In this document: piece by piece, positions 1,205 to 23,860 of the stretch | Numbering within the stretch: position 1 is the stretch's first letter | How the letters are laid out: each line of letters starts with the position of its first letter | IMG/VR virus record: IMGVR_UViG_3300042992_000235 | Span: 1-23,860 of that record | DNA: 23,860 nt | Strand: one strand, 5' to 3' | Source of the DNA: a virus | Notes under the pieces: generated by a model | Told to the model about the DNA's origin: nothing | What the model saw: only the letters and a program-made list of their open reading frames with translations | Database searches by the model: none | Translations under genes and position numbers: made by a program

Positions 1205-1258
1205 GTTCGCCCTTAAAGGCGAACCTACTATTGGTTCTGCCTTAGCAGAACTTATGTT
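1205..1258 (-). promoter_or_regulatory. 5' leader with two tandem hairpins
   Basis: Read on the minus strand, AACATAA (1258-1252) abuts a perfect stem GTTCTGC/GCAGAAC (1251-1234, loop TAAG). A second perfect stem GTTCGCC/GGCGAAC follows (1224-1205, loop TTTAAG). Both lie between the predicted transcription start (about 1273) and the start codon at 1186. No T-run follows either stem, so they do not look like intrinsic terminators. The same AACATAA-plus-hairpin arrangement opens the rightward leader at 7021. Confidence 0.7.
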
Positions 1259-2027: not shown

Positions 2028-2314
2028 TACTTCTTTGTCCAATCATTTTCTGGTAAGTCCAATCTTATCTTGCGTTTATTGCGGATAGTACGTCTCTCGT
2101 ATGGCGTAGTGCCACCCCAGAAACCATACTTTTCGTGCTTAATGGCGTACTCCATGCACTCAACAAGGATGTTGCAGTTAGAACAAAACTCTTTCAAGTC
2201 TGCTACCTCTTGCGCCGTCCTCTTGTTGTCATAGTCCTGATAGAACACATCCACACCCATACGTGCACAGTTCTGTGTGCCGTCATAGTTGGGATACTTA
2301 ATCTCATTCGTCAT
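2027..2314 (-). CDS. whiB: WhiB-family iron-sulfur transcriptional regulator
   Basis: This 95-residue protein has the complete WhiB signature. Cys16 lies in NCARMG, followed by Cys44, Cys47 and Cys53 in FCSNCNILVEC, the four 4Fe-4S cluster ligands. Then comes the GFWGG turn (family consensus G-[VI]-W-G-G) and a basic C-terminal tail (ERRTIRNKRKIR) that contacts DNA. WhiB proteins bind the host housekeeping sigma factor and alter promoter choice; some mycobacteriophage WhiB proteins act as dominant-negative versions of host WhiB2. Here it could redirect transcription or affect host division. A GGAGGA Shine-Dalgarno lies nine bases before the ATG. It overlaps the upstream 41-residue gene by 11 bases and is coupled to the downstream gene by TAATG. 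This gene is the strongest host marker in the window. Confidence 0.95.
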   Translation of the reverse strand: MTNEIKYPNYDGTQNCARMGVDVFYQDYDNKRTAQEVADLKEFCSNCNILVECMEYAIKHEKYGFWGGTTPYERRTIRNKRKIRLDLPENDWTKK

Positions 2315-6257: not shown

Positions 6258-6297
6258 TGTCTATCACTTACCTTTCATCTAGTCCGATATTACCGTG

Positions 6298-6338
6298 TCT
6301 TACTTTGTCTTACATTCTTACTATATCTTACTTTGTCT
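6298..6338. repeat. 13-bp direct repeat pair at promoter P4 (candidate operator)
   Basis: TCTTACTTTGTCT occurs at 6298-6310 and 6326-6338 on the plus strand. The right copy fills most of the spacer of promoter P4, and the left copy lies just downstream of its predicted start. That is a typical placement for repressor sites. Confidence 0.6.
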
Positions 6339-6348
6339 AACTTGTCAA
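6320..6348 (-). promoter_or_regulatory. Leftward promoter P4
   Basis: On the minus strand, TTGACA (6348-6343), a 17-bp spacer and TATAGT (6325-6320). The predicted start is near 6313, giving a leader of about 55 bases before the first gene. Confidence 0.75.
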
Positions 6349-6438
6349 GTAACAGAATCTTAAAGCGTTAGAGTTATCTCTCATCCCTTGGACTGCTACT
6401 AAGAGCCTAACCCGATACCTTTATTCTGTTATGTCTTA

Positions 6439-6467
6439 ACCTTATCAAACTATCTCTAGTCTGTCAA
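6439..6467 (-). promoter_or_regulatory. Leftward promoter P3
   Basis: On the minus strand, TTGACA (6467-6462), a 17-bp spacer ending TTGA (extended -10) and TAAGGT (6444-6439), the same -10 element as at 4453. Confidence 0.65.
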
Positions 6468-6522
6468 GTTCTTAAGTCTCTGGCGTGTCGGCTAACCTTC
6501 ACTCTTTCAACTTAATAAACCT

Positions 6523-6551
6523 AGACTATCACACCTTTGAAACCTTGTCAA
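6523..6551 (-). promoter_or_regulatory. Leftward promoter P2
   Basis: On the minus strand, TTGACA (6551-6546), a 17-bp spacer ending GGTGTGA (extended -10) and TAGTCT (6528-6523). The GGTGTGATA string around the -10 is shared with P1. Confidence 0.65.
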
Positions 6552-6561
6552 GTTTATTTGG

Positions 6562-6587
6562 TAACGAATTGATAACGAAATATAACG
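6562..6587. repeat. Three phased TAACG motifs
   Basis: TAACG begins at 6562, 6573 and 6583, which is 11 and 10 bp apart, so all copies face one side of the helix. The cluster lies between the start of P1 and the -35 of P2. Related pairs occur at 6647-6663 and 6954-6970. Confidence 0.55.
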
Positions 6588-6607
6588 GGGTCAATTTGTG
6601 GTGGCGC

Positions 6608-6636
6608 ATTATATCACACCATCAAGCCATTGTCAA
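6608..6636 (-). promoter_or_regulatory. Leftward promoter P1 (perfect consensus)
   Basis: On the minus strand, TTGACA (6636-6631), a 17-bp spacer ending TGA (extended -10) and TATAAT (6613-6608). All twelve core bases match the sigma70 consensus at optimal spacing, so this should be a very strong promoter. Confidence 0.85.
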
Positions 6637-6646
6637 GGGTGACACG

Positions 6647-6663
6647 ATAACAATTTAGTAACG
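6647..6663. repeat. 17-bp repeat ATAACAATTTRGTAACG, copy 1
   Basis: ATAACAATTTAGTAACG contains two TAACR motifs 11 bp apart. A copy with one mismatch lies at 6954-6970. This copy is just upstream of promoter P1, the other just upstream of the rightward promoter. Confidence 0.6.
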
Positions 6664-6669
6664 GGTAGA

Positions 6670-6678
6670 CTGTCCACA
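6670..6678 (+). other. Outlying DnaA-box-like site
   Basis: CTGTCCACA differs by one base from TTGTCCACA, the box preferred by actinobacterial DnaA. It lies on the far side of the iterons from the main box cluster. Confidence 0.4.
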
Positions 6679-6696
6679 CTCTCAAACTAGTACAAC

Positions 6697-6756
6697 TTTC
6701 AACTATTGAATTTTCAACAGTTTAAATTTCAATAGTTTAATTTTCAACTATCCCCT
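6697..6756. repeat. Four tandem 15-bp iterons
   Basis: Units start at 6697, 6712, 6727 and 6742, an exact 15-bp period: TTTCAACTATTGAAT, TTTCAACAGTTTAAA, TTTCAATAGTTTAAT and TTTCAACTATCCCCT (the last degenerates at its 3' end). The region is very AT-rich. The spacing and the DnaA boxes that follow suggest an origin of replication. Confidence 0.75.
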
Positions 6757-6782
6757 AGGGGTGTGGAGGGGGTGTATCCAAT

Positions 6783-6824
6783 CCGTCCACAACTTATACA
6801 CACCTGTGGATAACCTGTGGAAAA
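6783..6824. other. DnaA-box cluster, candidate replication origin
   Basis: Four 9-mers begin exactly 11 bp apart. CCGTCCACA (6783, two mismatches to TTGTCCACA) and TTATACACA (6794, matches TTATNCACA) are on the plus strand. TTATCCACA (6813-6805, perfect) and TTTTCCACA (6824-6816, one mismatch) are on the minus strand. One box per helical turn and opposed pairs suit cooperative DnaA loading. An AT-rich stretch (6852-6900) that could unwind lies to the right. This implies host DnaA may help start phage replication. Confidence 0.72.
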
Positions 6825-6953
6825 CGTATGACCCGCCCCAACCGAATCAGCCGATGTAATATCTATATAGACTCCCATCAAATATTTTTTTCAGTATTTT
6901 GGTAATAGGCACACAACTAAAACCCATTGGAATAAGGACTTTAAAAATAGTTT

Positions 6954-6970
6954 ATAACAATTTGGTAACG
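6954..6970. repeat. 17-bp repeat ATAACAATTTRGTAACG, copy 2
   Basis: ATAACAATTTGGTAACG is the partner of 6647-6663 (one mismatch). It ends 16 bp before the -35 of the rightward promoter, a position where an activator could contact RNA polymerase. Confidence 0.6.
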
Positions 6971-6974
6971 AAAC

Positions 6975-6993
6975 GTTACAGTCCCTTTGTAAC
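6975..6993. promoter_or_regulatory. Inverted repeat over the rightward -35 (candidate operator)
   Basis: GTTACA (6975-6980), seven bases, TGTAAC (6988-6993) form a dyad suited to a dimeric regulator. It overlaps the -35 hexamer TTGTAA (6987-6992). Confidence 0.55.
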
Positions 6994-7015
6994 AGGGTTA
7001 GTATATATGTAGGAT
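6987..7015 (+). promoter_or_regulatory. Rightward promoter of the virion operon
   Basis: TTGTAA (6987-6992), 17 bp, TAGGAT (7010-7015), each hexamer matching four of six consensus bases. The predicted start is near 7022, immediately before the hairpin array. Its weakness compared with the leftward promoters, and the dyad over its -35, suggest regulated late transcription. Confidence 0.6.
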
Positions 7016-7020
7016 AAAAT

Positions 7021-7130
7021 AACATAAGTGCGCTTTGGCGCACACAACCTAATGGCAGCCTTTTGTGGCTGCCTAACATAACCTAAAGCAGCCCTTTGGG
7101 GGCTGCTATTATGAGCGCCTTTCGGCGCTC
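7021..7130 (+). promoter_or_regulatory. 5' leader with four tandem GC-rich hairpins
   Basis: After AACATAA (7021-7027) come four perfect stems: GTGCGC/GCGCAC (7028-7043, loop TTTG), GGCAGCC/GGCTGCC (7054-7073, loop TTTTGT), AGCAGCCC/GGGCTGCT (7087-7107, loop TTTGG) and GAGCGCC/GGCGCTC (7113-7130, loop TTTC). The stem sequences differ but the T-rich loops are alike. AACATAA recurs at 7075-7081. No clear T-run follows the stems. The array begins within a few bases of the predicted transcript 5' end. The same arrangement with two hairpins occurs at 1205-1258 on the other strand. Confidence 0.78.
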
Positions 7131-7167
7131 TTATATTAAGTTCTTTATATCATTTTATTTAGACATG

Positions 7168-7188
7168 ATTTAGCGGTGGATGCTAAAT
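7168..7188 (+). promoter_or_regulatory. Fifth leader hairpin
   Basis: ATTTAGC/GCTAAAT with loop GGTGGAT lies 25 bases before the start codon at 7214, in an AT-rich part of the same leader. It is weaker than the GC-rich stems and might affect translation of the first virion gene. Confidence 0.4.
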
Positions 7189-7213
7189 TAAATTACACCA
7201 ATTAGGAGAGCCA

Positions 7214-7603
7214 ATGGCTGTCGCACCAAAGAAGACCACCAAGCCTAAGGCTGTTGCTAAGCCGAAGTCTAGCACCACCGTAAAACCAGTTACCCGTGGT
7301 GGACCTGGCGCTGGTGGAAAGAACGTATCCAAAGGGGCACGTAACCCAACAAGCACAGACAAGGCATTTAAAGCCCACAAGAAGGCTATTGAAAATGCCC
7401 GTGCAACATACGATGGTCTAAAGCGTGCTCAAACGTCAGACCCACTTGGAAGAGTTCTAAAGGGTGGCTTTGGAAAGTACGACAAAAAGTTCAAAGAACT
7501 AGATGCAGTTTTTCAAAAACTAACCAAAGATGACAACTACTTTCAAAGTTCTGGATATGCGTCTGGCTATGGTAATGGTCTAACAAAGAAACCAAAAAAG
7601 TAA
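7214..7603 (+). CDS. Lys-rich basic protein upstream of terminase, 129 residues
   Basis: The first 45 residues are low complexity and basic (PKKTTKPKAVAKPKSS), like histone H1 or the tail of actinobacterial HupB. The rest is a basic helical domain (FKAHKKAIENARATYDGLKR) ending in a Gly/Tyr and Lys-rich tail. AGGAG lies six bases before the ATG. It is the first gene of the virion operon and sits where a small terminase subunit is often found, but I see no typical small-terminase fold. A DNA-binding packaging or virion protein is the best guess, by position and charge only. Confidence 0.8.
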   Translation: MAVAPKKTTKPKAVAKPKSSTTVKPVTRGGPGAGGKNVSKGARNPTSTDKAFKAHKKAIENARATYDGLKRAQTSDPLGRVLKGGFGKYDKKFKELDAVFQKLTKDDNYFQSSGYASGYGNGLTKKPKK

Positions 7604-7626: not shown

Positions 7627-9513
7627 ATGGCAGCCAAAGGCGGTGCAGAGCACCATAATGTGGTACGCCTTAGAGAAGACAAGTCCAAGGTTATAGCCCA
7701 CGTAGAGACTGGCATTGAGGTGCGAGCCGCTATTGCCATGGTCGGTCGCAAGCCCGATGTTCTAAAGAAGTGGCTCACAGACCCTGTGTTCGCCAAAGAT
7801 TTAGAGATAGCCCGAACTGCTGGCTCAGACCTAATGAAGGTCACCCTGGGAAGTGAGAACGGCAAGAACATAGACTTCGCCACGTTCTCCAAAGAGTTCT
7901 TAGGTAACGAAGTATTCCCTCACCAGCAGGACTGGATTGACGTTCTGGAGGGAAGGGAGCCTAGTTGGCTCCATCCAGCCATGTCCTATGAAAAGGGCAA
8001 CAAGAACCGTATCTTAATTAATGTGCCACCTGAGCACGCCAAATCCACCGTAATCACCGTAGGCTATAGCACCTATCGCATTGCTATGGATTCCAACGTG
8101 CGTATCATTGTGGTGTCTAAGACTTTAAATAAAGCCCGTGAGTTCGTCTACTCCATCAAGCAGCGACTTAGCCATCCACGTTATGCCAAGTTGCAGCAGG
8201 TCTATGGACCATCTGGTGGTTGGAAAGAAGACTCTGACACCTGGAAGACCGATACGGTCTACCTAGGTCAAGAAGCCCGTGACTCATCCGAAAAGGACCC
8301 TACGCTTCAGGCGCTAGGTATTGGTGGTCAGATTTACGGTGCCCGTGCTGACCTGATTATTCTAGATGACGTTATCACTACTGCCAATGCCCACGAGTGG
8401 GAGAAGCAGTTAGAGTGGCTTCAGAAGGAAGTAATCACCCGTCTGGGTAAAAACGGTAAACTACTTATCGTAGGCACCCGTATCGGAGCGGTAGATTTAT
8501 ACCGAGAACTTCGTAACCCAGAGCACTGGTCTGGTGGCGTTAGCCCGTTTACACGCCTGGCTATGCCAGCCGCACTTGAAATTGACGATGACCCTAAGAA
8601 GTGGGTTACTCTCTGGGAGCGCTCAGACCGTCCTTGGGACGGCGATGATGACGCTGTACCAGACGAAGATGGTTACTACCAGAAGTGGGATGGACCAGCA
8701 CTTTTTGCAAGACGTAGCGAGGTAACAGCCTCAACATGGGCTTTAGTTTACCAGCAACAGGATATTGACGATGACGCAATTTTTAACCCAACGATTGTTA
8801 ATGCCTGTGTTAACCGTATGCGTAAGCCTGGTCCTCTCCGCATGGGAGCGCCTGGACATCCACGAGACGGACAATGGGTAACCCTTATTGGTATGGACCC
8901 TGCTATGGCAGGAAAGACTGCGTTAGTTGTTTATGCGATTGACCGTCAGTCTGGTAAGCGTCTAGTCCTAGATGCCTACAATATGTCAGACCCAACACCT
9001 GGCAAGATTCGTGCAATCATTGAAGACTGGATTAACACCTACCGCCCAGTAGAACTGCGTATTGAAATCAACGCCCACCAGAAGATGTACGAGGTGGACG
9101 AAGAGTTCCGCCAGTACCTGGCTAATAAGGGTGTAAGGTTCTCCAGTCACTTCACTGGCAAGAACAAGTGGGACACCGACTTCGGTGTGGCTGCTATGCA
9201 GGGCTTGTTTGGTACCATGACAAGCAACAAGCACAACCGAGATAATCTCATTGAACTACCAGACCCTCAGTACCACGAGGGTATCAAGGCTCTAATCAAT
9301 CAGTTGATTACTTGGAAGCCTGGAACTCGTAACCCTACAGACGTTGTAATGGCTCTGTGGTTCTGCGAGATTAAAGCCAAAGAAATGATTCAGCACTCTG
9401 GGAATCAAATCTGGCACGCAACTAGCCGCTTTGTTACTCAACGACAGATGGCACAGCAAGCAGTTGTTAATCTTGACGATTTAGCAATGGAACAATTTAC
9501 AACTTATCTTTAA
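7627..9513 (+). CDS. terL: Terminase large subunit with N-terminal helix-turn-helix-like segment
   Basis: This 628-residue packaging motor pumps DNA into proheads and cuts it. A Walker A-type loop VPPEHAKST is at residues 133-141, a Walker B ADLIILDD ends at Asp247/Asp248, and LLIVGTR (279-285) is the coupling motif. The RNase H-like nuclease has Asp424 (IGMDPAM), Glu480 (LRIEINAHQK) and Asp572 (TDVVMALWF) as probable metal ligands. Residues about 20-62 (ETGIEVRAAIAMVGRKPDVL, then KKWLTDPVFAKDLE) look like a helix-turn-helix of the type used by small terminases, so DNA recognition may be built in. It is followed nine bases later by the portal gene. Confidence 0.95.
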   Translation: MAAKGGAEHHNVVRLREDKSKVIAHVETGIEVRAAIAMVGRKPDVLKKWLTDPVFAKDLEIARTAGSDLMKVTLGSENGKNIDFATFSKEFLGNEVFPHQQDWIDVLEGREPSWLHPAMSYEKGNKNRILINVPPEHAKSTVITVGYSTYRIAMDSNVRIIVVSKTLNKAREFVYSIKQRLSHPRYAKLQQVYGPSGGWKEDSDTWKTDTVYLGQEARDSSEKDPTLQALGIGGQIYGARADLIILDDVITTANAHEWEKQLEWLQKEVITRLGKNGKLLIVGTRIGAVDLYRELRNPEHWSGGVSPFTRLAMPAALEIDDDPKKWVTLWERSDRPWDGDDDAVPDEDGYYQKWDGPALFARRSEVTASTWALVYQQQDIDDDAIFNPTIVNACVNRMRKPGPLRMGAPGHPRDGQWVTLIGMDPAMAGKTALVVYAIDRQSGKRLVLDAYNMSDPTPGKIRAIIEDWINTYRPVELRIEINAHQKMYEVDEEFRQYLANKGVRFSSHFTGKNKWDTDFGVAAMQGLFGTMTSNKHNRDNLIELPDPQYHEGIKALINQLITWKPGTRNPTDVVMALWFCEIKAKEMIQHSGNQIWHATSRFVTQRQMAQQAVVNLDDLAMEQFTTYL

Positions 9514-12243: not shown

Positions 12244-12409
12244 CGTAACATCGTTCCTTAATGTCTTTGGCGTTGAGGAACCAGACCTAGTTATGACACT
12301 AGCGACAATGCCATGGAAGTCTGAAGATGACCGTGATGGATTTATTAATGAAATTGTTTCCATGAATAATGGTCAACTATACAAGCGTAATCTAGTGAGG
12401 GTGCGCTAA
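12227..12409 (+). CDS. Small head-module protein, 60 residues
   Basis: It starts MLLVNNVTSFLNVFGVEEPD, with an acidic helical middle (WKSEDDRDGFINEIVSM) and a basic end. It overlaps the previous gene by 17 bases and is coupled to the giant gene by TAATG. The in-frame codon before its ATG is a stop, so no longer version exists. Its function is not recognised. Confidence 0.65.
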   Translation: MLLVNNVTSFLNVFGVEEPDLVMTLATMPWKSEDDRDGFINEIVSMNNGQLYKRNLVRVR

Positions 12410-15400
12410 TGTCACTATTTGATGTTTATGATAACCAGCGTGATAAGCGTGGTCGTGTACAAAAGTTTATTGATGGATTAGCACTATCTGTAAGTGGTAC
12501 CTTTGACCAAATCTCAATACCTTCTTTAACAAAGGGACTAACATTTGGTTATGTTGGTCAAAAGACCGCAGCATCAGGCGTACCAACAACTGACATTGCA
12601 CAACAAATTACTGAAGAAGCAGAATTTGCTGTTAATGATGCTCAAGTCAAAGCGAACAATACACTTCTCTGGCCCATTCAAACATTTGTTACACGACCAA
12701 TATCAACGGCTATGCTTGCCGCAAATGATGGATACCAACAGCAAGCGATTGGTGAATCACAAAATATTAAAGGTCCCTTTCTTTCTTATGACGTGCTTTC
12801 GGCTGCAACAAATCCAGAACTGTTCCGCAAGGCTTGGATAGATTCACGTGGTGTATCACCGATGCAAGCGTTTGTTGGATACATTGGTGACAATGTAAAT
12901 GGTACTCAAGGAACAGATAAAATTATTTGGTCAAGTGAAAAGGATGTTTCTGAGTATTTTGACCATGGCATCCAACGCTGGATTACTTGGGGTGGAGATA
13001 CAGCAATAGCCTGGTGGCTTGACCCTGGTGTTGTGGCAAGTGCTGGAATTGGTTTTGGTGCACGAAAGTACATTACAAGACCAGTAAGTTCCAAGAGAAT
13101 GAACCAAACGCTTAAAGATATTGATGACGCTGTAATTAATTACGTAAATAATGACTGGTCAACATTCGTTGGTTTTGCAAAAGAAAATGCTGGTGACCCA
13201 GCCTTAATTGCTAGGCACTCAATGATGGCTGGAAACCGTCCATTGGCTGAAATAGTTGCTAAGACTGCAAGTTACGGTAACGATACTGGAGACTATCAAC
13301 CTTTAGCACGCACACTTAAAGTTGGCATTGGTGACCCAAAGACTATAGACGAACTTGCTTACGATACAACTTTAACCGCTCAAGAATTAAGTAATATAAC
13401 TGGTGAAGTTGCAAGCATTAAGCAAAAAATTGCAGACTTAAAAGGTAAGCCAATAACAAGTGGCTCAAGTCAGTTCTTAATTGGTACACAGCGCAAGAAT
13501 GCTCTTGAGAACTACCGCCGCAACATCTTGGTAAAAGACCTAGATGGACTTCGTGGAGAAGTTAAAGCCGTACGTACTAACCTTGAAGTACTTGATGACA
13601 TTATTGCTGAAGTACCTGTTGGCTCCATTGGAAGACAGACCGTATCACGCTTTAAAGTAATTGAACAAAGCAGAGTTAAGAACGCAATTAAGAATGATGC
13701 AAACTACTGGCAAAGTGAACGCATTGGTCCGTTTGCTTATGTAACAAACTGGATAAATCCAAGCGGGATGCTACAAGAGTATCCTGCATACTACGCAACT
13801 GTTGGCGGTATTGCTGGTGACCGCTCACATCTTGAATACGCTGCTCGTGTACGCCAGTACGGAAAAGCAACAGCCAAGTCTGGTAATGAACAACGTGAAC
13901 TTTACAACAACTTTTTTTCCCTTCGTGAGAAGACACAGCAGTTACAAGCCTTTGACGAACTTGACGAAAAAGTTATTGTTGACGTAATTAAAAAAGAAAT
14001 TACAATTCCTAAGAATGCAACTCCAGAACAAATGGAGACATTCAATGAACTTGTGCAAATTGTTGCAAGCAAGTCCACTGCCCATCGTAATTCCATGATT
14101 ACAAAACTTGTTGATGAAAATTACACCATTGATGATGGCTTTGGAAGCGCAATGTACGTAAAGGAACTTTCAGACTTCCAGGATTCAATCGCATTTCAGA
14201 TTGCTCAAGAGCGTGGCACAGGCTCAAAGGTAACACAAAAAGATATTGAGGCTGCCAAGGCTGAGGTAAGAGCAATCTTTGCAAAAACACCTTCACGTTC
14301 ACCTCAGGTTCCAGCCGTACACTTTGGTCTTGACATTCGCCAGTTTTCTAAATCAGTTCGTGAAAACAGGTCATCACTACAGGCTATGTTTGATGAACTT
14401 GTAAGCAACCCACGTTACAAAGACATGGACATGAAAGAAATTGTTTCTTTATTTTCTGACGAAAAGTCCAGAAAAATGTTGTACACAGAAAAAATTGCAT
14501 CTGCCCCAGAAAAAGGATTGAAAGCCTGGGACACATCTTTAAGTGCTTTAGATACTTTCTATACTCAGTACTGGAAGCCAACAACTCTTGCAAGCGTTAA
14601 ATACGCAACTCGTAACGTTGGTGATGGATGGCAGCGTGGTCTTGCTATATCACTAGAGTGGTCACGTGACTACGGTGTACCTGCTAGAGAAGTCCTAGCC
14701 TCTGCTTTTGATAGAGGTGTTTGGCAACGATACACTGGCAATAAAGAAAAAACGTTTGAAGCACAGAAGTCAAAGTATTTACTTTACAAATACCGTGAAG
14801 AATTTAAAGATATAGAAGTTGCTGAAAACTCTCGCATTGCCGATGCTTTATTTAACACAAGCGACTCAGTATTTTCAACATTTACTCAGGCTCTAAACTC
14901 TGCCGATGACATAGCAACCGCATATGCCGCTGGTCGTGGACCAGCAGTTCCAATCATGGATGACATTAGAGGATTCTCTCAAACATTTGGCTACAGAATT
15001 TTAGATTCCAAGAATGTTCCAGATGGAGTTGACCAGCAACTGCTATCAAAGTTTGTTGATGGAGACCATGCTGGTGCATTTGATATTCTAGCCTCATCTG
15101 ATGAGCGTTTTGTACTTGATACTCTTGCAGAACTACAAAAGAGAGTTAGAAAAGAACGAGATTCTATTAACGAAATTTTTAATAAAGAGGAATTTTTCTT
15201 TACCGTGCCTAACGGTGCTCAAGTTCAACTTGGATTTATCTACAAGATGCTTGAGCAAATGGATTTTTCAATTCAAAACACTGCCAATGCTGCAATTCTA
15301 AAAGCAACCGCACGCAATAAGGCTGAAAGTTTTATCAACAAGACAGATGTTCTACGTAGTCTTGAGCGATACGGTGAAGGTGAGTTCCAAGTTACTAAAA

Positions 15401-18126
15401 GTGGCTTGATGATGGATGACTCTTTCGCTGGAATCGTTGGCGATATGATGCGTAAAGAAATTAGTTCCGCAAATACCGTTCTTGCTACCGTATTCGGTGC
15501 AGACCGTGTGGTAATTGGTAACATTCTTAACGGACGTGTACGTCAAGATGTAGTATCCCCGTTTAATGTTGTCCCAAGAGAAGGCAATCTTACCGCTGCT
15601 ACGCTAAATACAGAGTGGGCACCTATTGCTGCAGACTATGCTAATCGTCAACTTCGTGATGCAGTAACTAAGAAGTTAACAACTCTTGATACTGCAGACC
15701 CAGCGTCAATTTCAAAGGTAACTGCGTGGGCTAAATCAAATGACCCTGAGGCTGTTAAATGGCGTGAGTTGATGGCTATAACAATCAGTAACCTTGAAAA
15801 CAAATATGACGTTAATGACCCAATTAGTCTTTTAGTACAGAACGATGCCATTTTCCTAGAAGGAACATTGCCACGTTTTGGCATTGATGGTCGTGTTGTT
15901 GCACCATTAGTTGATGACGCAGGTAACTACATACTAACTCGCCGTGGTGAAGTTATTCCTGGAACTGGAATTATTGCCGAAGAGTCAGGTCAGTTAGTAC
16001 CTGGCTTACGTGCTAAGGCTGTTGAAGGTAAACTAACCGCTGAAGACATGAATGCCATTCCTGAACGTCAACGTGTCAGTGTTAGTGGAAATGTTCTTGA
16101 AGAAGAAACAGGAAACATTTGGGAACGTGGCGTACAAAAACTGTTTGAAATCATTGGAACAAAGCCAGAAGATTTGGCTGTAAAGAATCCAATCTACAGA
16201 ATGGTATACCAGGCAGAGTCTAGAAGAATAGCATCCCTATGGAAAGATGCTGGTCGTAGCGATGACTGGATTAATGCCAACGCAGATAAGTTACGTGAGT
16301 CAGCACATCGTGCTGCTTACAAGACTGTAATGGAAAGATTGTATTCCGTACAGCGCAAGACTGACCCAGCAGAAACACTTCGTTTGTTCTCTCCATTCTG
16401 GATGGCTAAGCAGAACTCAAACCGCTTCTGGTTTGGTTACGCTGCTAGAAACCCACAGGCTATACCACGTTACTTTCTTATCTGGTCATCTCCGTCTCGT
16501 GTCTTTGACGTAGAGAATGAAGATGGACAAGATGTAGAGTTTGTAAATCCGTTTGACCCTAAGGGTGCTGCGGTAAAGTTTACATTGCCTGAGACCATTG
16601 CTTCCAAGATGGGCATGACTGAGGGTGACAGAATGTCAGCATCCCTTGGAACTTACGACTTGATTAACAATGGTTTCTACCCAATCATGCCAGAGTTTGG
16701 TGCACCAGTTTATGACTTTGCAGCAAGTGCTGCATTGCTTGGAATGTCTGGTTCATTGGTTGACCCAGAGCCGCTACTAATTAAGTTTGGCGTAGACCCA
16801 AATAAGGTTCGTGACTTGTTTGCTGGTTACGTTAAGACTGGAGCACCAGTATCTGAACGTGACAAGTTTTTTAACTTCTTAATTAATCCAAACGCATGGA
16901 TGCGTTCTGTATTAACTGCAGGTGAAGATGTGCCATTAGCAAACAATGTCACTGGTTTCTTAGACCCAGCAGCAGCCAATCGTTTTGCTGCTGGAGTTAA
17001 TAAGAACTTCAAGTTCCTATACGAAGACTTTGCTAACAAGCAAGTTGTTGAAGGTGTAGATTCCGATATCACCTATCTTGACCAAATCACCACTATTGCT
17101 GATTTAACACAACAGGCTATTGGTCTTACTATCCAAGAAAATATGTGGGAAGCATTCTTTTCGTTTCTTGGACCTGTCGGTTCCATAAAGATAGAAAAGT
17201 ATGCTGACATTAAGGCAAAAGAACTTCGCCAGTATCAGGATATGTATGGTTATGACGAGGGCAAGTACCGCTTCATGATTGATAACACCAAGATTGCAGC
17301 CGATGGTTCTGTTGAAAGATACGGTTCATATACGTTATCTATTGCTGAGGGCAACACACGTGAGACAAATCCATTTGGTGTGATAGCAACTCCACAAACA
17401 GTTAAGGCTATCAACTACAACAAGGACCTATGGACCACATTAACCCAAGCGTCAATGGGTAAAGACGTAACACCAGACAATAAAGTTGTTGGTATGTTGT
17501 TTAACATGGGAGATAGAAACAAAGACTTCTCCGAAACAGCAAATGCAAAACTATACCAACTAAACGTTAAACGTGCGAATGTAAATCGTGAGGCTGAGCA
17601 ACGTGCTATGGCTGTTGATATGGGCTATGACGAATACTTTACCTTGCTGGATAAGTATGAGTCTGAGGCTGAAAGCAACGGTATTATTCCTGGTTCAAAA
17701 GAGTTTAAGGATATCTACGGCGAAGACCTAAAGGCTGCGGAAGATGCGTTAGCAAAGCGTAATCCTATTTGGGCTAATGATAGTTCAGTCTTTAATATGG
17801 GTAAGTCAAACCTAAACACTCAGATTATTCTTGAAGCCATGGGTGACGAGAACTATGTCAATACCATCGTCAAAAACAATCGTGCACTAGAGGCTTTGTA
17901 TTACTACATGGAATACCGCAAGCCAATGGTTGAAGAACGTCTGAGTATATCAGATAACGAAAAGACAAACATCTATAACACTAATGCCTTTGATGACCTT
18001 GTTGCCCAAAAAGAAGATTTACTTAACCAGTTGATTGCGTGGGAACCAACGTTTGAACCAATAGCAAAGTACTACCTAAAGAGGGACCCACTGCTTTCAG
18101 ATGGCGAACTAGCGAGGATTAAATAA
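12409..18126 (+). CDS. Giant (1,905-residue) probable internal virion/ejection protein
   Basis: This single ORF fills nearly a quarter of the window. Most of it is predicted soluble and helical. Two stretches resemble conserved parts of giant phage virion or polyvalent proteins as I remember them: YWKPTTLASVKYATRNVGDG near residues 721-740 (pattern W-K/R-P-x-x-L-x...R-N-V), and a segment near 1285-1345 with ERLYSVQRK then LFSPFWMAKQNSNRFWFGY (pattern ...SPF-x-x-A-x-x-N). I see no convincing lysozyme or transglycosylase motif. Podoviruses store proteins this large inside the capsid and inject them to build a channel across the cell envelope. The position between portal and scaffold fits. Coupled on both sides by TAATG. 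Confidence 0.85.
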   Translation: MSLFDVYDNQRDKRGRVQKFIDGLALSVSGTFDQISIPSLTKGLTFGYVGQKTAASGVPTTDIAQQITEEAEFAVNDAQVKANNTLLWPIQTFVTRPISTAMLAANDGYQQQAIGESQNIKGPFLSYDVLSAATNPELFRKAWIDSRGVSPMQAFVGYIGDNVNGTQGTDKIIWSSEKDVSEYFDHGIQRWITWGGDTAIAWWLDPGVVASAGIGFGARKYITRPVSSKRMNQTLKDIDDAVINYVNNDWSTFVGFAKENAGDPALIARHSMMAGNRPLAEIVAKTASYGNDTGDYQPLARTLKVGIGDPKTIDELAYDTTLTAQELSNITGEVASIKQKIADLKGKPITSGSSQFLIGTQRKNALENYRRNILVKDLDGLRGEVKAVRTNLEVLDDIIAEVPVGSIGRQTVSRFKVIEQSRVKNAIKNDANYWQSERIGPFAYVTNWINPSGMLQEYPAYYATVGGIAGDRSHLEYAARVRQYGKATAKSGNEQRELYNNFFSLREKTQQLQAFDELDEKVIVDVIKKEITIPKNATPEQMETFNELVQIVASKSTAHRNSMITKLVDENYTIDDGFGSAMYVKELSDFQDSIAFQIAQERGTGSKVTQKDIEAAKAEVRAIFAKTPSRSPQVPAVHFGLDIRQFSKSVRENRSSLQAMFDELVSNPRYKDMDMKEIVSLFSDEKSRKMLYTEKIASAPEKGLKAWDTSLSALDTFYTQYWKPTTLASVKYATRNVGDGWQRGLAISLEWSRDYGVPAREVLASAFDRGVWQRYTGNKEKTFEAQKSKYLLYKYREEFKDIEVAENSRIADALFNTSDSVFSTFTQALNSADDIATAYAAGRGPAVPIMDDIRGFSQTFGYRILDSKNVPDGVDQQLLSKFVDGDHAGAFDILASSDERFVLDTLAELQKRVRKERDSINEIFNKEEFFFTVPNGAQVQLGFIYKMLEQMDFSIQNTANAAILKATARNKAESFINKTDVLRSLERYGEGEFQVTKSGLMMDDSFAGIVGDMMRKEISSANTVLATVFGADRVVIGNILNGRVRQDVVSPFNVVPREGNLTAATLNTEWAPIAADYANRQLRDAVTKKLTTLDTADPASISKVTAWAKSNDPEAVKWRELMAITISNLENKYDVNDPISLLVQNDAIFLEGTLPRFGIDGRVVAPLVDDAGNYILTRRGEVIPGTGIIAEESGQLVPGLRAKAVEGKLTAEDMNAIPERQRVSVSGNVLEEETGNIWERGVQKLFEIIGTKPEDLAVKNPIYRMVYQAESRRIASLWKDAGRSDDWINANADKLRESAHRAAYKTVMERLYSVQRKTDPAETLRLFSPFWMAKQNSNRFWFGYAARNPQAIPRYFLIWSSPSRVFDVENEDGQDVEFVNPFDPKGAAVKFTLPETIASKMGMTEGDRMSASLGTYDLINNGFYPIMPEFGAPVYDFAASAALLGMSGSLVDPEPLLIKFGVDPNKVRDLFAGYVKTGAPVSERDKFFNFLINPNAWMRSVLTAGEDVPLANNVTGFLDPAAANRFAAGVNKNFKFLYEDFANKQVVEGVDSDITYLDQITTIADLTQQAIGLTIQENMWEAFFSFLGPVGSIKIEKYADIKAKELRQYQDMYGYDEGKYRFMIDNTKIAADGSVERYGSYTLSIAEGNTRETNPFGVIATPQTVKAINYNKDLWTTLTQASMGKDVTPDNKVVGMLFNMGDRNKDFSETANAKLYQLNVKRANVNREAEQRAMAVDMGYDEYFTLLDKYESEAESNGIIPGSKEFKDIYGEDLKAAEDALAKRNPIWANDSSVFNMGKSNLNTQIILEAMGDENYVNTIVKNNRALEALYYYMEYRKPMVEERLSISDNEKTNIYNTNAFDDLVAQKEDLLNQLIAWEPTFEPIAKYYLKRDPLLSDGELARIK

Positions 18127-20885: not shown

Positions 20886-21896
20886 ATGCCGAATACAGGC
20901 TTATCAGGTGGTAGTGCAGCAACTAACGGTGGTCTTGGTGGTGGCGCTTACGCTTCCGCTAACAACGTTGGTGCTTTCACTCCATCAAACGCCGCAGGTC
21001 TAGTTCAGAAGGCGTACGACCGTCTTGTTGAATTTGAACTGCGTGCAACCCCACTCATCCGCTCCGTAGCGGACAAGAAGCCAGCACGTCAGGCAATGCC
21101 TGGTTCAAGTGTTGCGCTACAAATCTACAACGACCTTGCTGTTGCTAAGACTGCTTTGTCGGAAGATGTAGACCCAACAGCAGTAGCACTTGCTACTCCA
21201 GACATCGTAACCGTAACTCTAAACGAATACGGTAACGCAACTGTAGTAACTCGCAAGTTGCAGTTGATGTCTCTTGCAGACGTTGACCCTGCTGTTGCAA
21301 ATATCCTTGCATTCAACATGGCTGATAGCATTGACGAACTTGCACAGGATGCCCTAATTGCTGGTACTAACGTACTATACGCAACTGGTGGTTCAACTGT
21401 AGCAACAACAACCTCAGGTATCACTTCAGATGACACAATCACTGCTGCAGATATCCGTAAGGCTGTTGCCAAGTTGCGTACCAACAAGGCTAACGGACGT
21501 AAGGGTTCAATGTACTGGTGTGGTATTCACCCAGAAGTATCCCATGACCTCCGTGCTCAGAGTGGTTCCGCTAACTGGCGTCTACCGCACGAGTACTCAG
21601 CACAGAGTAACATCTGGGCTGGCGAAATCGGAAACTTTGAAGGTGCTTACTTCATTGAGTCCCCTCGTCTACGTAAGGGTGCAGACGGTGCTTCAAGCAT
21701 TCCTGTATACCGTACGTTCCTTGCAGGACAGCAAGCACTTGCTGAGGCTGTAGCCGAAGAACCACACGTGGTTATCGGTCCAGTCGTTGACAAGTTGATG
21801 CGTCAGCGTCCAATCGGTTGGTACGGTGTTCTAGGACACGCTATCTACCGTCAGGAAGCATTGTTCCGCATTGAGTCTGCTTCAAGTATTGCTTAA
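20886..21896 (+). CDS. Major capsid protein
   Basis: This 336-residue protein follows the scaffold gene. It has a Gly/Ala/Ser-rich N-terminal arm (LSGGSAATNGGLGGGAYASA), a helix like an HK97-fold spine (VDPAVANILAFNMADSIDEL then AQDALI) and the C-terminal pattern RPIGWYGVLGHAIYRQEALF. That ending is like capsid proteins of the N4-gp56/HK97-like group. It would form the capsid shell. AAGGA lies upstream. Codon use looks more uniform than in the internal virion genes, as expected for a highly expressed gene. Confidence 0.9.
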   Translation: MPNTGLSGGSAATNGGLGGGAYASANNVGAFTPSNAAGLVQKAYDRLVEFELRATPLIRSVADKKPARQAMPGSSVALQIYNDLAVAKTALSEDVDPTAVALATPDIVTVTLNEYGNATVVTRKLQLMSLADVDPAVANILAFNMADSIDELAQDALIAGTNVLYATGGSTVATTTSGITSDDTITAADIRKAVAKLRTNKANGRKGSMYWCGIHPEVSHDLRAQSGSANWRLPHEYSAQSNIWAGEIGNFEGAYFIESPRLRKGADGASSIPVYRTFLAGQQALAEAVAEEPHVVIGPVVDKLMRQRPIGWYGVLGHAIYRQEALFRIESASSIA

Positions 21897-21912
21897 TTAG
21901 CGACACTAATCT

Positions 21913-21944
21913 CACTCCTAAGTCATATAACGGGCTTAGGGGTG
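21913..21944 (+). terminator. Hairpin after capsid gene (attenuating terminator?)
   Basis: CACTCCTAAG/CTTAGGGGTG forms ten pairs (one G-T) with a 12-base loop, followed by GGGTTATGTTT, a poor T-tract. A partial terminator after a capsid gene is common in phages and would reduce expression of the tail genes. Confidence 0.55.
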
Positions 21945-21976
21945 GGGTTATGTTTCTAAACTAGAAGGAAAACATA

Positions 21977-22781: not shown

Positions 22782-23860
<1,079 letters not shown>

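Follow-up and report, generated by a model that had tools for sequence, protein, structure and literature searches.

A conserved row of leader hairpins on the late mRNA of freshwater actinobacterial phages

Structured leaders of phage and bacterial transcripts

A structured 5' leader is a known kind of element in phage transcripts and has been described in HK022, where putL, a pair of stem-loops shortly past PL, exerts its effect across 10 kb or more (PMC9378689). The put RNAs have a shared sequence, and specific bases in them bind RNA polymerase (PMC9378689). Antitermination by put, from two stem-loops (~70 nt) near an early promoter, depends on the zinc-binding domain of the RNA polymerase beta' subunit. 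LoaP dual-hairpin leaders likewise precede a long operon; their stems are conserved in sequence, and a specialised NusG paralogue is encoded with the operon.

Other leaders have been connected to the stability of mRNA. E. coli ompA, the B. subtilis aprE leader, and RNase J roadblocks all have a strong hairpin at the 5' end or close to it, and stabilisers of the ompA/aprE type combine an abundant mRNA with a generic stem sequence. The classical 5'-terminal stem-loop known from the work on ompA tolerates a tail shorter than 14–18 nt. In Bacilli, 5' roadblocks shield long untranslated downstream RNA from RNase J1 (PMC3997798). In the actinobacterium M. smegmatis, a strong hairpin pair near the 5' end of the esxB mRNA gave no stabilisation, deletion of both hairpins raised the transcript level, and no correlation emerged across the transcriptome (PMC11728522).

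The DNA analysed here (the window, 23,860 nt, positions 1 to 23,860 of the virus record IMGVR_UViG_3300042992_000235) carries a leader that resembles both groups in part. Like HK022 putL and putR, leaders of this type mostly place two stem-loops just past a phage promoter from which a long operon is read, and as in LoaP leaders the hairpins precede that operon. Unlike put, which belongs to the early operon, the leader here heads the late operon, and the late run lacks evident internal terminators. With the ompA/aprE-type stabilisers it shares a strong hairpin near the predicted 5' end, an abundant mRNA, and a generic stem sequence, but it differs by its several consecutive hairpins and, in the window clade, by a predicted tail of about 15 nt. 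Rfam gave no match at gathering score in the window or in 16 related loci, and the matches obtained by E-value on the leader were all far below the gathering scores and not credible. No report of the element was found in the open papers searched, with subscription journals mostly outside the search. In a large family of freshwater actinophages, a deeply conserved RNA element that is absent from Rfam thus stands at the head of the late mRNA. Isolates in culture and tractable Streptomyces relatives are available, and the element opens to direct experiment how phages keep an mRNA of nearly 30 kb intact and fully transcribed in actinobacteria, whose rules of mRNA decay and termination are poorly known.

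Genome context, late promoter, and transcript start

The window belongs to an actinophage genome and contains terminase, portal, and capsid genes and a WhiB gene (2087–2275, minus strand). WhiB is present in all records and, together with the isolated relatives, points to an actinobacterial host. Scans of prophage and MAG contigs for the host yielded no relative at first and then one weak, unrelated match. Early genes run leftward (minus strand) and virion genes rightward (plus strand) from a divergence gap at 6258–7213. The leader is followed by a small basic, lysine-rich open reading frame (7214–7603, plus strand), which in some close relatives is absent or swapped for unrelated-looking small basic frames. 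The first conserved gene of the late run is the terminase large subunit (7627–9513, plus strand; phrog_38, E 2.8e-59). A virion-region protein of 1905 aa (12409–18126, plus strand; phrog_10618) had no Pfam domain above the cut-off, and a tRNA scan of the sequence found none. Near the window end, overlapping open frames of low-complexity, repeat-like composition occupy 22803–23479, possibly reflecting a collagen-like tail protein in another frame.

Complete relatives measure 38–41 kb and have one co-directional late run of 26–29 kb, extending from the leader to a convergent junction, and not the 16-kb operon that had been assumed in the preliminary description. A strict terminator scan of five complete relatives found a GC hairpin with a T-run at the junction in all five and no strong U-run terminator within the late run. 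Inside the run, one weak terminator candidate was present in each of four of the five genomes and corresponded in three to a hairpin at the capsid gene; in G005, the strict scan lists a leader hairpin. The scarcity of visible terminators, which had been offered as a reason for antitermination, thus leaves nothing evident to antiterminate: the single U-run terminator stands at the end of the run. The capsid-gene hairpin is a long GC stem directly 3' of the major capsid stop codon (21894–21965, plus strand; core of about 18 bp with 4 G-U pairs). A hairpin at this site was present in all seven relatives in which a capsid gene was found, with a different sequence in distant ones, and it looks like an RNase III site, a leaky terminator, or a 3' stabiliser.

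The late promoter core GGGTTAGTATATATGTAGG (6995–7013, plus strand) was defined by comparison with relatives. One clear near-exact copy is found in each genome of the window type, and the core also lies upstream of the terminase leaders in several clades. Upstream of the core, the −35 region contains a dyad GTTAC-N9-GTAAC (6975–6993, plus strand) that is conserved at this place in relatives, and three half-sites GTAAC, GTTAC, and GTAAC surround this region at 6965–6993 (plus strand). The dyad is a probable operator or sigma contact, and its replacement by GTTCGG..TTTGAAC in other clades suggests a regulator of shifting specificity. The last gene of the early run, outside the window, is sigma-factor-like (G001 13564–14262, minus strand; phrog_354, E 2e-16) and has homologues in all ten relatives tested. 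Sigma70_r2 of Pfam and TIGR02943 gave no match and Sigma70_r4 exceeded the cut-off in F5 only, the Pfam sigma models missing the protein in the window clade. This sigma-like protein probably reads the late promoter together with the host RNA polymerase. A search for a single-subunit RNA polymerase (PF00940) gave no match; its control also matched nowhere, and the search is hence uninformative. The early genes have a perfect sigma70-type promoter, TTGACA-17-TATAAT (6636–6608, minus strand), whose leader is without hairpins. A second strong sigma70-type promoter match for the early genes lies at 6348–6320 (minus strand).

A TAGGAT at 7010 was considered as the −10 element and rejected because relatives (L034, L281) do not conserve it, and the transcript start is consequently placed near 7010–7014, where the promoter core of the relatives makes it probable. 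From the same core, the first hairpin probably begins about 14–18 nt into the transcript. The array is thus near the start, as had been proposed, but probably not within a few bases of it. Leaders of the L131, L133, and window types have a predicted tail of about 11–18 nt before the first stem. A stem directly follows the promoter core in three other lineages, the L105 type, the L066 type, and F5/E7, so that the 5' end itself would be paired.

The hairpins and their conservation in relatives

Four perfect GC hairpins with differing stems and T-rich loops are present on the plus strand at 7028–7130, shortly downstream of the late promoter, in agreement with the preliminary description. H1 (7028–7043) reads GTGCGC-TTTG-GCGCAC, H2 (7054–7073) GGCAGCC-TTTTGT-GGCTGCC, H3 (7087–7107) AGCAGCCC-TTTGG-GGGCTGCT, and H4 (7113–7130) GAGCGCC-TTTC-GGCGCTC. 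H3 is 74% like H2 over 31 nt and may be its duplicate. The RNA from 7010 to 7220 folds at −78.6 kcal/mol versus −51.3 ± 4.1 for shuffles (z −6.6; none of 200 as good), whereas the early leader on the opposite strand folds like its own shuffles (z −0.7). The minus strand of the array folds equally well (z −6.8); since perfect inverted repeats fold on either strand, folding by itself cannot tell the strand. The described lack of terminator T-runs applies to H1–H3, but H4 is followed by TTATATTA and is listed as terminator-like by a lax scan. A boxA-like CGCTCTTA at the 3' arm of H4 was rejected, as in relatives it changes along with the stem. After H4 comes the AU-rich TTATATTAAGTT (7131–7142, plus strand), which reads TTATATAGGT in many relatives; other clades have a TATAT-type sequence behind their final hairpin. 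The weaker fifth hairpin that had been noted does exist (H5, 7168–7188, plus strand; ATTTAGC-GGTGGAT-GCTAAAT) but is not conserved, being absent in L003 and L009, where the frame at 7214 is also absent.

Terminase searches of viral contigs and a scan for the exact promoter core retrieved several hundred loci. After removal of duplicates, 190 terminase-upstream regions were compared, and 155 non-redundant late leaders with a recognisable core (terminase 54–100% identical) were scored for perfect GC hairpins within 140 nt, between promoter core and terminase gene. The mean was 1.94 per leader (n = 155), while first-order Markov shuffles gave 0.05 and the 140 nt preceding the core gave 0.14, and at least one such hairpin was present in 149 of the 155 leaders. 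Hairpin number ranged from 0 to 4, with two in 81 of the 155 leaders, one in 43, and four in 20; the window clade has four and most other clades two. By this definition at most one hairpin is present in leaders of the L055 type, whose fold is also weaker (median z −1.9). Neither stem nor loop sequence is shared between clades. The 8 nt after the stems contain a mean of 2.3 T, and many hairpins are followed by none.

The nearest cultured relatives are the Planktophila phages E7 and F5 (OX376640, OX376641) (PMC10202952). Their terminase is 54% and their capsid protein 68% identical to those of the window, and their late leader forms two AT-rich hairpins. More distantly, Streptomyces phages of the Beephvirinae (WRightOn, Manuel, Immanuel3, Dennebes; terminase about 42% identical) have two covarying hairpins before the terminase gene, preceded by a TATA-rich promoter-like core. 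These hairpins are high in GC and about 90–110 nt apart, in a leader longer than that of the window type. Leaders of the L105 clade contain conserved tandem G-A motifs, GACGARCG..AGYGAGT and GTAGYGA-hairpin-GARCGAAG (L175 1360–1500 and relatives, alignment A4), as well as repeated G-runs and conserved unpaired motifs, and as aligned this leader is a more elaborate RNA than plain hairpins.

The check for covariation in related phages that had been proposed was carried out in three clades, and compensatory changes were found in each. Among the 22 leaders of the window clade, 98.4% of 609 cells are paired and 9 of 28 pairs show two-sided changes, a count reached in none of 500 shuffles; they affect four of seven pairs in H2, three of seven in H4, and also H3. 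H4 occurs as GAGCGCC/GGCGCTC, GTGCCCC/GGGGCAC, GACCGCC/GGCGGTC, and GATCGCC/GGCGATC. The second clade has 99.6% of 266 cells paired and two-sided changes in 10 of 14 pairs. For the third (L105), two-sided changes were counted in 13 of 19 predicted pairs, and two of its stems are flanked by tandem G-A steps. Kinship among the sequences inflates these counts of two-sided changes, while a control with slid partners was only 29–56% paired. The arms of H1 are 100% paired with zero variation in the 22 leaders, only the length and sequence of its loop varying, whereas H2–H4 drift. Judged from these alignments, pairing itself is preserved in the leader while the sequence changes freely.

Orientation is also marked. 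The closing pairs of 156 distinct hairpins are, in 5' to 3' direction, C-G in 138, T-A in 15, G-C in 2, and A-T in 1, and their loops contain 390 T versus 135 A. As a DNA palindrome gives no reason for such an asymmetry, the strand under selection is, on this evidence, the plus-strand RNA. Together with the compensatory changes, this strongly supports the earlier proposal of RNA structure and not sequence repetition. G-U pairs are nearly absent: in two clades, 71 changed cells are two-sided and 1 is one-sided. No internal G-U was found when stems with one internal non-Watson-Crick pair (one mismatch) were scanned for; 5 of 22 leaders of the third clade have U-G at one loop-closing pair. Non-Watson-Crick pairs are too scarce for a comparison of G-U and A-C polarity to be informative. 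Either maximal stability is selected or template-switch-type mutation keeps the repeats perfect, and the inversion of the H4 loop between L117 and L021 (TTTA to TAAA) fits template switching. The scarcity of G-U makes covariation weaker as the sole proof, but the strand asymmetry and the fixed place are unaffected by it.

Possible functions of the leader

In the sequences compared, presence, position, conservation of pairing, and strand asymmetry show that the phage late mRNA begins with a 5' leader of hairpins conserved at the RNA level. Stem sequence and number are free, the place is fixed, and the RNA strand is favoured, which indicates a need for structure near the 5' end and not for sequence. 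For this reason, a generic leader shield for the late mRNA is tentatively favoured, at somewhat less than even odds. Transcription from the late promoter, probably by host RNA polymerase carrying the phage sigma-like factor, would begin near 7010–7014, and within about 15 nt the nascent RNA would form successive hairpins that fold fast, are very stable, and have U-rich loops closed by C-G. These would seal or roadblock the untranslated 5' end and so guard the 26–29 kb message from 5'-dependent decay of the RNase J/E type; Rho loading, backtracking, or R-loops may be countered as well. Such a function would make little demand on sequence, and four hairpins instead of two in the window clade could be duplications that add redundancy.

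Differences between clades in stems, loops, and number, including the AT-rich stems of F5 and E7, are consistent with a generic structure. The hairpins lack U-runs, the early leader has no such structure, and in three lineages the predicted 5' end would itself be paired; the roadblocks of Bacilli offer a favourable precedent (PMC3997798). A hairpin after the capsid gene in the same transcript would be expected if structure manages stability or processing of the mRNA. Against a shield, the mycobacterial esxB hairpin pair provides an unfavourable analogy (PMC11728522). The tail of about 14–18 nt in the window clade would also exceed the limit of the classical 5'-terminal stem-loop, and the invariance of H1 and the unpaired motifs of the L105 clade hint at specific recognition.

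The chief rival to the shield is a put-like cis-acting processivity RNA, which would stay on RNA polymerase and suppress pausing or Rho-dependent or intrinsic termination over the late run. The two hairpins just past the promoter in most clades, the single long late run, the special conserved motifs in H1 and the L105 clade, and the weak terminator-like long hairpin after the capsid gene would all suit it. The put parallel raised in the preliminary description is not supported as membership in the put family, since clades have no hairpin sequence in common, contact bases included, and the number varies from 0 to 4. Put RNAs moreover contain non-canonical pairs and make sequence-specific contacts, and the hairpins here are plain and perfect; the five complete relatives scanned offer no strong internal terminator to overcome, and read-through of the end terminator would enter early genes. 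A put-like effect on pausing or Rho is conceivable but rather unlikely. LoaP-type control finds no partner in the phages, as a NusG paralogue (PF02357) was absent in 11 phage genomes or records in which the controls matched, and the stems are not sequence-conserved as in LoaP leaders; a host-encoded factor stays conceivable. A family-wide, sequence-free processivity leader, in which perfect Watson-Crick hairpins would act on RNA polymerase by their fold alone (anti-pausing, anti-Rho) with a phage sigma partner in abundant freshwater actinobacterial phages, is regarded as unlikely.

Binding of an RNA-binding protein, from phage or host, that would recognise H1 specifically and serve late autoregulation of translation or assembly would explain why the H1 arms are constant while H2–H4 vary, and a small basic frame often follows directly after the leader; the G-A motifs of the third clade would fit as well. 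It is nevertheless distinctly unlikely, given the variable H1 loop, the lack of a motif common across clades, the position of the hairpins well upstream of the ribosome site, and the absence of the basic frame from several relatives that keep all four hairpins. Late promoters with a leader terminator exist, as in lambda pR', and a leader attenuator that ends transcription early until a late factor allows read-through could draw on H4, which with TTATATTA passes the lax scan. H4 alone is borderline, however; the other GC hairpins have no U-run, as their T-poor 3' flanks show, whereas the phage's own late-end terminator has a clear one, and attenuation is highly improbable. DNA-level palindromes, whether they form cruciforms or are inverted repeats that template-switch mutation keeps perfect, would account for the near-absence of G-U, of which the capsid-gene hairpin has four, and for the H4 loop inversion. 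They hardly come into question in view of the strong strand asymmetry of closing pairs and loops, the fixed place behind the late promoter only, the tandem G-A motifs, and a variable loop length ill-suited to a dimeric DNA-binding protein. A packaging site or phi29-like pRNA was considered, with position alone looked at, and was set aside.

Elsewhere in the window, a perfect hairpin GTTCGCC/GGCGAAC (1205–1224, minus strand) lies just upstream of the start of a probable exonuclease domain and is kept in G001, G002, and G004 with an altered loop.
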